This document shows positions 6,043 to 42,105 of a stretch of 64,000 nucleotides of DNA, one piece after another. The notes under the pieces were generated by a model. It ran no database searches. It had not been told where the DNA came from and saw nothing but the letters and a program-made list of their open reading frames with translations. Each line of letters opens with the position of its first letter. Position 1 is the stretch's first letter. The position numbers and the translations under genes were made by a program. Source of the DNA: Rhodohalobacter sp. SW132. Its GTDB lineage: Bacteria; Bacteroidota; Rhodothermia; Balneolales; Balneolaceae. The stretch lies in the NCBI RefSeq assembly GCF_003390325.1, contig NZ_QUOK01000002.1, positions 1 to 64,000 on the forward strand, given 5' to 3'.

Positions 6043-6110
6043 TGATTATTCTTCAACAATATTTTCCCAAAATAATAAGTAAAAAACATTAACAATCTAA
6101 TAAACCAGCT

Positions 6111-6170
6111 ACATAACAAGTTAAGGCATGGAACGAAGCCTGCCGAGTTCCATGCCTTAACTTGTTATAA
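6111..6170. other. attC-like site 2: perfect 22-bp palindrome
   Basis: Two 22-bp arms (6113-6134 and 6147-6168) are perfect complements around a 12-nt loop. The outer ends read ACATAAC and GTTATAA, like the R''/R' boxes of the neighbouring attC sites, and it sits where a cassette end is expected. Unlike normal attC it has no extrahelical bases, so strand choice by an integrase would be lost. It could instead act as a terminator, though no T-run follows. Confidence 0.5.
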
Positions 6171-6221
6171 TGCTTTCTCCAACCTTCTGTATTTAAGCAC
6201 AAATTTTGGTATATTTAGAGT

Positions 6222-6395
6222 ATGAATTCAGCTACTAATAAGAAGAATATCGACACCATTTCCCGCGAAGCTATGAAGTCACAAAGAGCTTCATTTCGTA
6301 TTGAAGGGATGAATATATCAAAGAAGAGAGCTGATCAAATTCGACGAGAAGTGGTCCGGGAGTTTCAAAACGGTTCTACTTCTTCAAACTCCTGA
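6222..6395 (+). CDS. VbhA-like class I Fic antitoxin (57 aa)
   Basis: A 57-residue basic helical protein. Residues 16-29 read EAMKSQRASFRIEG and contain S24-x-x-x-E28-G29, an exact match to the (S/T)xxxE(G/N) inhibitory motif of Fic antitoxins. The following helix with KKRADQIRREVVREF resembles the second helix of VbhA. Known mechanism: the Glu of the motif blocks ATP gamma-phosphate positioning in the Fic active site. The gene converges on fic (6376-6960, minus), and their 3' ends overlap by 20 bp. Class I antitoxins are normally encoded upstream in the same operon, so this layout is odd. The gene must have its own promoter in 6171-6221. Confidence 0.65.
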   Translation: MNSATNKKNIDTISREAMKSQRASFRIEGMNISKKRADQIRREVVREFQNGSTSSNS

Positions 6396-6960
6396 ATAGC
6401 CTGGTCATCGGTTCATAGTTTTTATCTGCTGCTGCCTGAACCGCTGCAATATATTCCGGCATACTTTTCTCGGAAATCATTTCAAAATTGAATCGCTCAA
6501 ATCCCCTCTTTAAAGCTATAAGATCTCCAAAAAGTCTCGCTGTACGTCCATTCCCATCTCGAAACGGGTGAATGAAAAGTAGTTCAGCATGAAGTGGCGC
6601 AGCGAGTTCAATTAGTTCTTCATAATTTTCAAATGAATCTGGTAGTGGCTTCAGGAACTCTTTTTCAAATTCCTCGACGGCAGCAGGTAGAAATCTGGCA
6701 GCGGGGAACATGAATCCACCTTTGGACAAATTAACTTGTCGCAACTCTCCTGCAAATTTATATAAATGACTGAATGCTGTTTTGTGAATAGATGAAATAA
6801 ACTTCCAGTTAAATTGGTTTATATGATCCAGTTCCGATTCGAACTTGATTTCAGCTCTAAGAAATCCCCGGTATTCTTCTTCGGCGATTTTCCCGGGATC
6901 TTCTAATCCGAGCTTATTCGGCAGTATTTCATCTTCAGATTCAGGTGTGTGGTATTTCAT
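6376..6960 (-). CDS. fic: Fic domain protein (probable AMPylating toxin)
   Basis: 194 residues. The active-site loop HPFRDGNGRTAR (near 131-142) matches HxFx(D/E)GNGRxxR in full, so catalysis is expected: transfer of AMP from ATP to a protein Ser, Thr or Tyr. The N-terminal 30 residues are polar, and I see no inhibitory (S/T)xxxE(G/N) helix at either end, which places it in class I and points to a separate antitoxin. The candidate is the convergent 57-residue gene at 6222-6395. It lies reversed within a cassette flanked by attC-like sites (6111-6170 and 6995-7126), as is common for toxin modules with their own promoters. Confidence 0.9.
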   Translation of the reverse strand: MKYHTPESEDEILPNKLGLEDPGKIAEEEYRGFLRAEIKFESELDHINQFNWKFISSIHKTAFSHLYKFAGELRQVNLSKGGFMFPAARFLPAAVEEFEKEFLKPLPDSFENYEELIELAAPLHAELLFIHPFRDGNGRTARLFGDLIALKRGFERFNFEMISEKSMPEYIAAVQAAADKNYEPMTRLFRSLKK

Positions 6961-6994
6961 AGTTCAATTATACTATGGTATCGGGTGAATCGCA

Positions 6995-7126
6995 TTATAA
7001 CAAGGTATTTCAAGCGGATTTTGCGGCCCATCGACTTAATTAAACCATTGCCCTTGTAGTAGTTCATATATTTTACCACTTTATTTATTTAAACGGTAAA
7101 ACCGCTTAGCCTCCAAACCGTTATGT
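6995..7126 (+). other. attC-like integron recombination site 3
   Basis: R'' box TTATAAC (6995-7001) and R' box GTTATGT (7120-7126). Inner arm AGCGGATTTT (7013-7022) pairs with AAAACCGCT (7098-7106), leaving one extrahelical A. The L' side reads ACCGCTTAGCC, close to classical attC sites. The left half strongly resembles the decayed site near HigBA at 41193-41220. Confidence 0.7.
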
Positions 7127-7150
7127 TTACAAAAATATCTGGTATCCAGG

Positions 7151-9545: not shown

Positions 9546-9806
9546 ATGAGCAAAAAAACACTCAATCTCACCATCGAAGAAAGCATCAAAGTGCGGGCCA
9601 AGCGGATTGCGAAAAGTCGCGGAATCAGTGTCTCGCAGTTAGTTGAACAGGCAATCATCCGCGAGGAAGATCCGGAGGAGTTTACGCCAGAACCGGGAAG
9701 CGGAGTTGAACAGTTAATGAATGCTATACCCGAATCTCAGAAACTGGATAACTACAATTACAAAAAGTTGAAATTAGAAGCCCTTAGAAAGAAATATGAC
9801 CTCTAA
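9546..9806 (+). CDS. Ribbon-helix-helix antitoxin, DUF6364-like
   Basis: 86 residues. The N-terminal KTLNLTIEESIKVRAKRIAK followed by SRGISVSQLVEQAI is a ribbon-helix-helix DNA-binding domain of the DUF6364 kind. The C-terminal part (KLDNYNYKKLKLEALRKKYDL) is a charged helix of the sort that wraps the toxin. The stop overlaps the start of the PIN toxin by 11 bp, which indicates translational coupling. It is probably autoregulated through the repeats at 9499-9537. Confidence 0.85.
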   Translation: MSKKTLNLTIEESIKVRAKRIAKSRGISVSQLVEQAIIREEDPEEFTPEPGSGVEQLMNAIPESQKLDNYNYKKLKLEALRKKYDL

Positions 9807-10227
9807 TAGAGTTCTGATTGATACAGATATATGCATTGATGCAATTCAAAAAAGGAAGCCTTTTGACGTTCAGGCACAGATAATTTTTGATTATTCTGAG
9901 AAAGGTATCATAGAGGGTTTCGTGGCAGCACATAGTTTCGATACGATATTTTACATTCTTAGTCAGACAGCATCTCAACAAAATGTGTATCAGGCTATTA
10001 ATGGACTTCGAAGAACCGTTGATATTGCAAATGTGTCAAGAGAAGTAATCGATCAGGCTCTCAAAATAAAATGGCCCGACTTTGAAGATGCTATCCACTA
10101 CCAGGCAGCACTTGCTGCGGGGTGTGATGCTTTGGTAACCCGGAATCCAGGCGATTTTAAAAGTGACGACCTGCCAGTGTTATCACCTCAACAATTTTTG
10201 TCTGAAATCAGAGAAAGTGAGGGCTGA
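9796..10227 (+). CDS. PIN-domain toxin (VapC-like ribonuclease)
   Basis: 143 residues. PIN acidic residues are visible: D9 in RVLIDTDICID, and the C-terminal cluster WPDFEDAIHYQAA followed by CDALVTRNPGDF. PIN toxins cut RNA, often tRNA or rRNA, in a Mg-dependent way. It overlaps the antitoxin gene by 11 bp in type II toxin-antitoxin order. It closes the accessory region. Confidence 0.9.
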   Translation: MTSNRVLIDTDICIDAIQKRKPFDVQAQIIFDYSEKGIIEGFVAAHSFDTIFYILSQTASQQNVYQAINGLRRTVDIANVSREVIDQALKIKWPDFEDAIHYQAALAAGCDALVTRNPGDFKSDDLPVLSPQQFLSEIRESEG

Positions 10228-39303: not shown

Positions 39304-39990
39304 TTAGTTGTCCCGGGTCAGCACACCTTTCAGGCGCTGAGCTTCTGTAGCTTGCTGACTGTTCGGGTAATTATCCAGAATTCGATTTACCATGCGGAGT
39401 GCGTTGGTATCATCCCCGGCCTCACGATAAGCTTGTGCGGCTTCCAGAAGATTCAACGGTGTGGTGGAATTATTCTCGTTCCATTCAGCGGCACGTACAT
39501 ACATTTCAGCAGCTTCTTCATAGCGGTCGAGTTCGGAAAGTATAATCGCATGGAGTGATATCGGGGCGACACCCATAATTCCACTTGGCACATCAAACCG
39601 CTGAATGCGATCAAGTGCATCTTCATAATTGCCGAGTTCCATTTCGGAAACGGCAGCATAATAGTTTGCAAGATTTCCGGCGGATGTTCTGCTATAGTTA
39701 TCTGCAATCTGTACAAAACCAAGGGAAAAGTCATCTTCATCCCCTAAAAGAGCAGTTTCATAGTTGCCGCGCATAAATTGTTCTTCTGCTATTCCGAGAA
39801 GATCCTGCGCTTCCTGTTCCTGCTGACCTGAGTAGACAAAATAACCGACAATTAACCCGATTACGAGCAAAACGCCAAGCACTCCGCCAATGACGGTCGC
39901 TTTGTTCTGTTCGTAGTAATACATGAACCGTGAGGAATATTCTATCAGAATATCCTGTTCTAAGTCTTCTTTCTTAAGTCCCTTACTCAT
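39304..39990 (-). CDS. Membrane-anchored TPR protein (YfgM-like)
   Basis: 228 residues. N-terminal cytoplasmic part, one transmembrane helix (about 33-54, VIGGVLGVLLVIGLIVGYFV), then TPR repeats outside (LANYYAAVSEMELGNYEDAL, LSELDRYEEAAEMYVRAAEW, AAQAYREAGDDTNALRMVNR). The layout is that of YfgM, a SecYEG-associated periplasmic chaperone adaptor. Monocistronic with its own terminator. Confidence 0.82.
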   Translation of the reverse strand: MSKGLKKEDLEQDILIEYSSRFMYYYEQNKATVIGGVLGVLLVIGLIVGYFVYSGQQEQEAQDLLGIAEEQFMRGNYETALLGDEDDFSLGFVQIADNYSRTSAGNLANYYAAVSEMELGNYEDALDRIQRFDVPSGIMGVAPISLHAIILSELDRYEEAAEMYVRAAEWNENNSTTPLNLLEAAQAYREAGDDTNALRMVNRILDNYPNSQQATEAQRLKGVLTRDN

Positions 39991-40459
39991 ATAAAGCCGT
40001 TCAAATTATTTTATCTTTAAGCCGTGAAAGTTATCACTGTTTATCGTTTTAACCAAGTGAAATTGAACCTTCAATCTTATTTGGGAACAAAATTTTGAAA
40101 GAATTCAAAAAACACCACCTTAGAATGGATTGAACGGATAAATATTACTGACTGAGACATGAAAATATCATGAAAAGTGTGGATGTGGTAGTTGGTGAGT
40201 CAGTGTTATTGAGGTCGTACGTTGAAGTAAATCACACAATGTATGACTCTTTAATTGCCAGTGTCATTAAAGTTAGATTTGGGTTCAAATTAGTTATACC
40301 ATACAGATTTTTAGAATGATAAAATTTGAAGCTCATCGTATTTTCGATCAGTTATTTCTTCTCTCTCGTGACGTTCGATAGCTCGGTGTAATTCAAAAAC
40401 ACACTTTATTTTGAATTTCAGCTTTTTAGCTATGGAGATAACATTTAGCCCCATTTGAG
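39991..40459. other. Intergenic region
   Basis: No gene supported. A lone GTTAGAT (40272-40278) fits the R' consensus and would bound a reversed HigBA cassette, but such a heptamer also occurs by chance. Confidence 0.35.
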
Positions 40460-40786
40460 TCAGGCTGGTTTCATCTCTCCTTCGAACAGTTTTCCCATCT
40501 GTTTTTTTGTTGTTCCAAGTCGTAGAAGTGCTTTAATCATCAGATCTAATGATATACCTTGATCACCACCTTCAAGTTTGGCAATACGAGACTGGCTTGA
40601 TCCAATGGCCTGTGCAAGCTGTTCCTGGGTCCAGCCTTTTTTTGCTCGTTGAGTTTTTACCAGTTTGCTGATATCCAGACGAATATCGATATAGGTTTCC
40701 TCTTCTGGTGTAAGTTCAAGAAAATCGGAGGCGGAGCCCACGCGATATCCTTTTTCTTCCAGTATTTTGCGTTTCTTCTTATCCAT
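40460..40786 (-). CDS. higA: HigA-like antitoxin (XRE-family HTH)
   Basis: 108 residues. The C-terminal HTH_3 domain reads GWTQEQLAQAIGSSQSRIAK then LEGGDQGISLDLMIKALLRL. The N-terminal part (KKRKILEEKGYRVGSASDFL) is a toxin-binding extension. Located 17 bp after the toxin gene; toxin-first order is typical of HigBA. It probably represses the operon through the inverted repeat at 41141-41158. Confidence 0.9.
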   Translation of the reverse strand: MDKKKRKILEEKGYRVGSASDFLELTPEEETYIDIRLDISKLVKTQRAKKGWTQEQLAQAIGSSQSRIAKLEGGDQGISLDLMIKALLRLGTTKKQMGKLFEGEMKPA

Positions 40787-40803
40787 AATATTTCCAGTCT
40801 ATC

Positions 40804-41133
40804 CTACTGTTTGTAATGAGACAGCCGTTTTTTGCATACATCTATGACTTTCATCGGTGTCTTTTGAGTTTTCTTGGCAAAGACCTCCAATATGACAATG
40901 GCATCATCATCGATGAAATAGATGATGCGCCATGTTTTATTCTTGCCATTGATTCGGAGTTCATGACATTTATTTCCAACCGCTGGCATGGGTCTGGAAT
41001 CCGGCATTTCAACCATATCACCTTTTTGAAGCCTTCTTAACAGAAAACCGGCTTTGAGTCTGGCATCTTCTGAAAAAGGAGGTGTCTTTACTTCACCCTG
41101 AATCCACACTAGTGGTTTATCATTTTCAGACAT
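40804..41133 (-). CDS. higB: HigB/Gp49-like toxin (RelE superfamily)
   Basis: 109 residues. LRINGKNKTWRIIYFIDDDAIVILEVFAKK is the phage-derived Gp49/HigB core (C(H)ELRI..G...WRI.Y), followed by KTPMKVIDVCKKRLSHYK. Family role: ribosome-dependent mRNA cleavage. First gene of the pair. A decayed attC-like site lies 34 bp upstream, so the module may be an old cassette in reverse orientation. Confidence 0.9.
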   Translation of the reverse strand: MSENDKPLVWIQGEVKTPPFSEDARLKAGFLLRRLQKGDMVEMPDSRPMPAVGNKCHELRINGKNKTWRIIYFIDDDAIVILEVFAKKTQKTPMKVIDVCKKRLSHYKQ

Positions 41134-41140
41134 AGCTTAA

Positions 41141-41158
41141 TATGTCGAATTTGACATA
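41141..41158. promoter_or_regulatory. Inverted repeat, probable HigA operator
   Basis: TATGTC (41141-41146) and GACATA (41153-41158) are perfect complements separated by 6 bp, ending 8 bp before the higB start. Autoregulatory HTH antitoxins bind such sites. Confidence 0.5.
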
Positions 41159-41166
41159 AATACGCA

Positions 41167-41290
41167 ATAACATAGCCCGGAATTCTACAAGCATTTAAGC
41201 GGGTTTGGCTGCCCATAGATTAAAGAAAAGGCAATGCAATTGTAGAAATTCCGAGTTTTCAGCACTTAAATACCAAACCGCTATTCGACG
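41167..41290. other. Decayed attC-like site with two interleaved palindromes
   Basis: Starts ATAAC (41167-41171). GGAATTCTACAA (41179-41190) pairs with TTGTAGAAATTCC (41240-41252), and AAGCGGGTTTGG (41197-41208) with CCAAACCGCT (41273-41282). The pairs interleave, so only one stem can form at a time or they make a pseudoknot. AAGCGG.TTT then TGCCCAT resembles attC-like site 3 (7012-7032, AAGCGGATTTTGCGGCCCAT), and AAACCGCT matches its L' arm. The R' box is missing. Confidence 0.45.
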
Positions 41291-41388
41291 TCTTTTATGG
41301 AATTATAATTTCTTATACAAATAAATATATGCAGTATAAAAGTTGGTCCGACAGCGGTAAATCAACTAATTAAACTTAAATATTTACA

Positions 41389-42105
41389 TCAGGAGAGATC
41401 AGCAGAGAGTTCATTTTTTGTTAAAACTCCGCTTTGCAGGGTGTAAAGCGAATCACACCGGGATGCAATTTCCTCTTCGTGAGTGATCAGTACGATGGAG
41501 AGGTCACGATCTTTACGCAGTTCAAATAACATGGATAGAATCAGTTCTGTATTCGTTTCATCGAGGTTACCGGTGGGTTCATCGGCGAGTATGATGGACG
41601 GATCGTTCATCAGCGCCCGCGCCATGGAGACCCGCTGCTGTTCACCGCCGGAAAGTTGTGAGGGACGGTGAGTCAGACGGCTTCCCAGGCCGAACCGTTC
41701 CAGCAGGGCAGAGGCTTTTTTTTCCGCGGTTTTTTGACCGATTCCTTTGATGAATGCCGGCATCATTACGTTTTCGATGGCTGTAAATTCGGGCAGCAGA
41801 TGGTGAAACTGGAACACGAACCCAACACTATTGTTTCTGAAATCTGCAAGCTTATCCGGCTTCAGTGAATAGACTGAATCTCCTTCCCAGTAAACGTCGC
41901 CACTATTGGGGCGATCGAGTCCGCCGAGAATATGCAAGAGGGTGCTTTTCCCACAGCCGCTGGACCCCACAATGGCTACAATTTCGGAAAGGGCCACAGA
42001 GAGTTCAATGTCTTTCAGGATTTCGAGCTTGCCGGTGCCTGCATCTGTATCAAAAGATTTGGCGATGTGTTCAGCCCGTAATACCGGTGTGCCGGTTTGT
42101 GTCAT
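41389..42105 (-). CDS. ABC transporter ATPase, LolD/MacB type
   Basis: 238 residues: Walker [15 protein letters not shown]-loop [20 protein letters not shown], signature [15 protein letters not shown], Walker [15 protein letters not shown]-loop ITHEEE. The [13 protein letters not shown] segment is characteristic of LolD, the ATPase that releases lipoproteins from the inner membrane. The membrane partner (LolC/E) is not adjacent. ATGA overlap with the phosphoesterase gene upstream indicates coupling. Confidence 0.92.

Follow-up and report, generated by a model that had tools for sequence, protein, structure and literature searches.

A decayed attC-derived site at a probable off-array HigBA integron cassette in Rhodohalobacter sp. 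SW132

The stretch of DNA analyzed here, the first 64,000 nucleotides of contig NZ_QUOK01000002.1 of Rhodohalobacter sp. SW132 (referred to as the window), very probably contains a decayed, reverse-oriented HigBA cassette which stands alone between a TPR protein gene and a LolD-like ATPase gene, was inserted there outside of an integron array, and has since kept its genes while its attC decayed. The site in question (41167-41290) is next to the start of a minus-strand two-gene operon of the HigBA type. The features of this locus are as follows:

39304-39990, minus strand: TPR protein gene, left neighbor of HigBA
40060-40443: DNA preceding the cassette, ~380 bp, unexplained and absent from relatives
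40444-41294, plus strand (attC orientation; genes reversed): whole HigBA cassette, ends placed by eye from the cassette ends of relatives
40460-40786, minus strand: HTH_3 antitoxin gene, 108 aa, intact; Pfam PF01381
40804-41133, minus strand: Gp49/HigB-like toxin gene, 109 aa, intact; Pfam Gp49 PF05973
41141-41158: palindrome TATGTCGAATTTGACATA, candidate antitoxin operator/promoter of the HigBA pair
41178-41190: left arm of the interleaved palindrome, CGGAATTCTACAA
41183-41191, plus strand: degenerate R'', TTCTACAAG (CTTAACAAG in relatives; by eye)
41198-41208, plus strand: L'' arm, AGCGG(G)TTTGG
41240-41253: right arm of the interleaved palindrome, TTGTAGAAATTCCG, within the variable part of the attC
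41273-41282, plus strand: L' arm, CCAAACCGCT
41294-41299, plus strand: degenerate R', TTTATG (by eye, against L072r, L074r and site 3)
41300-41388: DNA between the cassette and LolD, unexplained
41389-42105, minus strand: LolD-like ATPase gene, right neighbor of HigBA and the attC-like site

The RelE/Gp49-type toxin gene comes first in the operon and the HTH antitoxin gene second, and both Pfam families were matched above the cut-off. The HigB-like protein is a predicted toxin; it is 82-84% identical to seven copies from other genera of the family, and the antitoxin is 79-89% identical to most family copies. The core ATATGTC..TTGACAT of the palindrome in front of the toxin gene is common to nearly all HigBA copies compared, and this palindrome is a probable antitoxin operator/promoter of the pair. 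Synonymous divergence of the pair is far below that of the flanking core genes: pS of HigB was 0.41-0.64 against the seven copies from other genera, while LolD, TPR and YmdB gave 0.71-0.86 against six relatives, the sister genome included. For these seven copies, dN was 0.07-0.09 against a dS of 0.60-1.42 for HigB, and 0.06-0.14 against 0.64-1.10 for HigA; these are rough pairwise Nei-Gojobori counts, and three more distant copies gave higher values, some of them saturated. These comparisons indicate a horizontal history of HigBA and purifying selection on both genes.

The sequence-only reading had likened the 41.2 kb site to the third attC-like site of the window (site 3), and the resemblance is confirmed. 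Site 3 (6986-7140) aligned over its full length with 41161-41310 at a local score of 70, compared with a mean of 26.7 for dinucleotide shuffles (sd 5.0, maximum 54), none of which reached 70 in 2000 trials. When site 3 was compared with the rest of the window, scores above 46 arose only where the compared stretch overlapped the 41.2 kb site itself, and exact copies of the shared motif AAGCGG.TTT....GCCCAT are limited to positions 7012 and 41197 of the window. None of 21 other attC loci of the genome aligned with the 41.2 kb site above the null maximum of 49, two site-3-containing loci excepted. As training set for a covariance model we took 14 attC sites from this window and from relatives, without the 41.2 kb site; the structure was assigned manually to a MAFFT alignment whose left arm is imperfect. 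A search of this sort had been proposed from the sequence, and with filters off it returned the 41.2 kb site at 23.7 bits (E 0.0015 in the window), after three training sites (106.3, 75.9 and 66.0 bits) and ahead of noise at 12.0 bits (E 1.4). The match is confined to the L'' stem, the variable part and L'; its E value is 0.12 when the whole genome is searched, so the covariance match alone would not settle the matter. A custom attC scanner applying strict motif rules was abandoned, as it failed to recover most of the known sites. Judged by its sequence, the 41.2 kb site evidently descends from an attC.

The L''/L' stem of this attC is retained. The matching AAACCGCT arm noted in the sequence-only reading is there, with 41198-41208 pairing with 41273-41282 around one bulged base, and bulged bases at this stem occur in most other attC sites examined. 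The outer boxes are in a different state. R'' and R' boxes follow the consensus RYYYAAC / GTTRRRY, from which both TTCTACAAG and TTTATG depart, and both lie outside the model match; by eye, the R'' of the L072 copy is CTTAACAAA and those of others are similar. Since both boxes are degenerate, we describe the site as derived from an attC and not as a working attC. The earlier statement that R' is lost was nearly right: the box is degenerate, although a remnant (TTTATG) persists at 41294-41299, where relatives have, by eye, GTTATG or GTTATA. With R'' and R' lost, this attC is probably no longer recombinable.

The second, interleaving palindrome described from the sequence is also present, its two arms pairing with one unpaired base, and a stretch resembling the right arm, CTTGTAGT, is found in site 3 and in L075r as well. 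Taken alone this palindrome is only mildly unusual; of 300 shuffles of the 124-nt region, 5 reached its best inverted-repeat score. An attC is recombined by an integron integrase in the form of its folded bottom strand. The interleaved palindrome dominates the predicted fold of the single-stranded bottom strand of the 41.2 kb site (z -1.36, with 17 of 200 shuffles as good), while the attC sites of L072 and L014 are predicted to fold as attC hairpins (4 of 200 and 3 of 200 shuffles as good). This argument from folding is weak because the better-preserved site 3 also shows no attC hairpin in its predicted fold, 146 of 200 shuffles being as good. It is conceivable, and in our view quite improbable, that R'' was rewritten into a match for the variable part of the attC to which it belongs, for instance through templated repair between imperfect inverted repeats. 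In that case the bottom strand would fold into a non-recombinable hairpin, a self-silenced attC, and a mobile addiction cassette would have become a fixed gene pair.

Relatives of the toxin were found at 26 loci in named genomes and, within the family, in 11 of 92 genomes, this one included. Twelve other copies, all from Balneolaceae/Balneolales, were compared (L066-L075, L014 and L015); judging by their identical sequence, loci L009-L013 duplicate the contigs of five of them. Immediately on the toxin side, four of the 12 (L072, L074, L075 and L014) have a complete attC and six (L066, L067, L069, L070, L071 and L015) only a half site or an altered R''; in L068 the site is interrupted, and L073 has none. 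Seven copies show an attC on the antitoxin side and four do not; L015 is cut by the contig end. These assignments were made by eye, and several of the sites were used in training the model and so match it by construction. Most copies have in common the ends G^TTAAGTACCC and GGGTACTTAAC, together with a TATGTCGAATTTGACATA-like palindrome before the toxin gene. In these Balneolaceae relatives the HigBA-type pair is thus a reverse-oriented integron cassette, the same gene being found elsewhere with a complete attC and defined ends. When the left end and the right R'' of the relatives were aligned with the window by eye, the window copy matched at both cassette ends, with mutations, its left end reading A^TTTAG-CCCC at 40443/40444. 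Its genes are likewise reversed relative to the attC, just as the sequence alone had suggested. Six of 19 toxin loci from other phyla were viewed (L016-L018 and L020-L022) and no attC was seen in these by eye.

Two peculiarities were observed among the copies. The HigB relatives L074 and L075 (genomes G083 and G017) matched as two or three separate fragments, so that their toxins may be frameshifted, next to attC sites which look complete. In L068 the R'' side breaks off after CACAGGCGGG; these ten bases appear again ~380 bp further on, which looks like the insertion of a small element.

The locus itself is empty in relatives. The TPR gene is present in 57 of 58 genomes (this one included), and in all 29 other TPR-LolD loci fetched the two genes are adjacent without a HigB or HigA match, separated by gaps below ~200 bp except at two loci of one genus (L038 and L039, 436 and 778 bp). 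The sequence-only reading had suggested this comparison and offered two interpretations: an isolated old cassette insertion is supported by the empty locus and by the complete attC in four of the 12 copies, while an integration hotspot is not supported, HigBA being found in 0 of the 29 loci. Vertical presence of HigBA at this locus across the whole family, which would have spoken against an insertion, was not observed either; HigB occurs in just the 11 family genomes and, among four genomes of the genus, in this one only. In two other genomes HigBA pairs lie off-array, though clean empty sites were not found there and we mention them as context only. HigBA lies beside a histidine kinase gene only in G100, the kinase being present in 9 of 28 genomes, with one contig ending beside it; it lies beside a second gene only in G107, and that gene is present in 24 of 28 genomes.

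The limits of the insertion are less clear than its absence elsewhere. The TPR side of the sister locus (L036) aligns with the window up to ~40065 (score 115, null maximum 46). The whole insert measures ~1.33 kb, more than one cassette. No DNA match to 40060-40450 was found in the other 91 family genomes, and neither flank (380 bp on the left; 41300 to LolD on the right) aligned with the gap of the sister above shuffles. With regard to a G^TT-type target, the left junction reads A^TTTAG, and the DNA flanking the cassette has no relatives on either side. Since the flanks (380 bp left, about 95 bp right) have no relatives, a clean single-cassette junction cannot be read and we can only infer the attG step. 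Two candidates within the left flank were discarded: a 47-aa reading frame matched no Pfam family and was without relatives in the 91 other genomes of the family, and a hairpin fold at 40305-40450 was not convincing (z -1.21).

According to the reading we prefer, off-array insertion of a HigBA cassette, the cassette would have arrived as a circle, and an integron integrase would have integrated it into the chromosome away from the array, in this lineage and possibly at an attG target. Since the promoter/operator lies within the cassette, the pair may have stayed expressed and for that reason been retained; meanwhile the attC would have lost R'' and R' and probably ended up non-recombinable. 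Catalysis by an integrase, the attG target and the loss of recombination are the presumed parts of this history. The unexplained flanks suggest another, tentative possibility, namely that they are older cassettes with attC sites beyond recognition and that HigBA is the last readable member of a small multi-cassette cluster (CALIN). An insert longer than one cassette, a left part without relatives and the several sites held by many other attC groups of this genome would be in keeping with such a remnant, yet the covariance model, even with filters off, found no second attC in 40060-40443.

Flanks without relatives could also mean that HigBA and an old attC were passengers of some other transfer, by homologous recombination or on a mobile element, with no local action of an integrase, and it fits this explanation that the attC is already decayed and yet the locus is empty even within the genus. 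We regard it as unlikely, as the list of open reading frames shows no transposase, recombinase or repeat adjacent to the pair and the cassette ends are recognizable on both sides. That the palindromes are merely a terminator or operator hairpin of HigBA or LolD, with no attC relic, might be proposed from the predominance of the interleaved palindrome in the predicted bottom-strand fold. This seems very improbable given the homology to site 3, the covariance match and the attC at the same place in the cassette relatives; besides, the fold z-score is only -1.36 and an Rfam search of the window returned no family.

Insertion of cassettes into chromosomes at attG sites has reportedly been described by Loot et al. 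in 2024. That work is cited in passages of PMC11389934 and PMC12901181, and off-array cassette insertion at attG is discussed in PMC12444791. Like those cases, the cassette described here lies outside of an array at a locus empty in relatives (29 of 29 other loci); unlike them, its junctions are unreadable and the attG step is presumed. The terms SALIN and CALIN are used in PMC12690207 and PMC12444791 for attC sites, single or clustered respectively, that have no integrase close by. Our locus resembles these in combining an attC-derived site and a gene cassette far from the integrase gene, and differs in an attC so decayed that L''/L' and the variable part alone match and the boundaries are blurred. 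HigBA cassettes are mentioned for integrons of Vibrio cholerae and oral Treponema in PMC4909258 and PMC7370490 (citing Vibrio work), and toxin-antitoxin cassettes are stated to have their own promoters in PMC11023631. The present pair is similar as a HigBA-type integron cassette with its own promoter, but it belongs to another bacterial family, and the window copy is off-array with a dead-looking attC. Off-array insertion, lone cassettes and HigBA cassettes have all been described already, and the present case is new; in the literature searched, as far as its accessible text goes, no description of Balneolaceae integrons was found. It is a real but fairly ordinary instance of a known phenomenon, and it shows a route by which genes may pass from an integron array into the ordinary gene content of a chromosome, with the toxin-antitoxin pair being kept as the recombination site erodes.

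The one integron integrase of the genome (5.08 Mb in 45 contigs) that exceeds the curated cut-off lies close to the start of contig 15, whose far end shows a partial attC match. At a threshold of E<=1 the covariance model gave 24 attC matches, which form 14 groups separated by more than 10 kb. Several of these groups, close to the ends of contigs, may represent one broken array, and matches weaker than ~0.01 may be due to chance. Matches are scattered over contigs 1, 3, 4, 6, 7, 10 and 15 (L083-L105), some of them apparently decayed. Across the family, attC matches at E<=1e-4 were found in 68 of 89 genomes, often in several places per genome, and an integrase above the cut-off in 48 of 89. Balneolaceae, rich in integrases and attC matches, could therefore be a natural system in which to measure off-array insertion and decay.

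The nearest attC array lies ~34 kb from the HigBA site. It includes a Fic/DOC-family gene (6376-6960), also reversed in its cassette, whose attC is site 3 (6995-7127), the most similar of all to the 41.2 kb site. The attC-like site 2 (6110-6171) forms a perfect hairpin stem of 22 bp, has no extrahelical bases and is unmatched by the attC model. Shortly after the array, at 9546-10227, a DUF6364 / PIN-domain pair is probably another toxin-antitoxin system.
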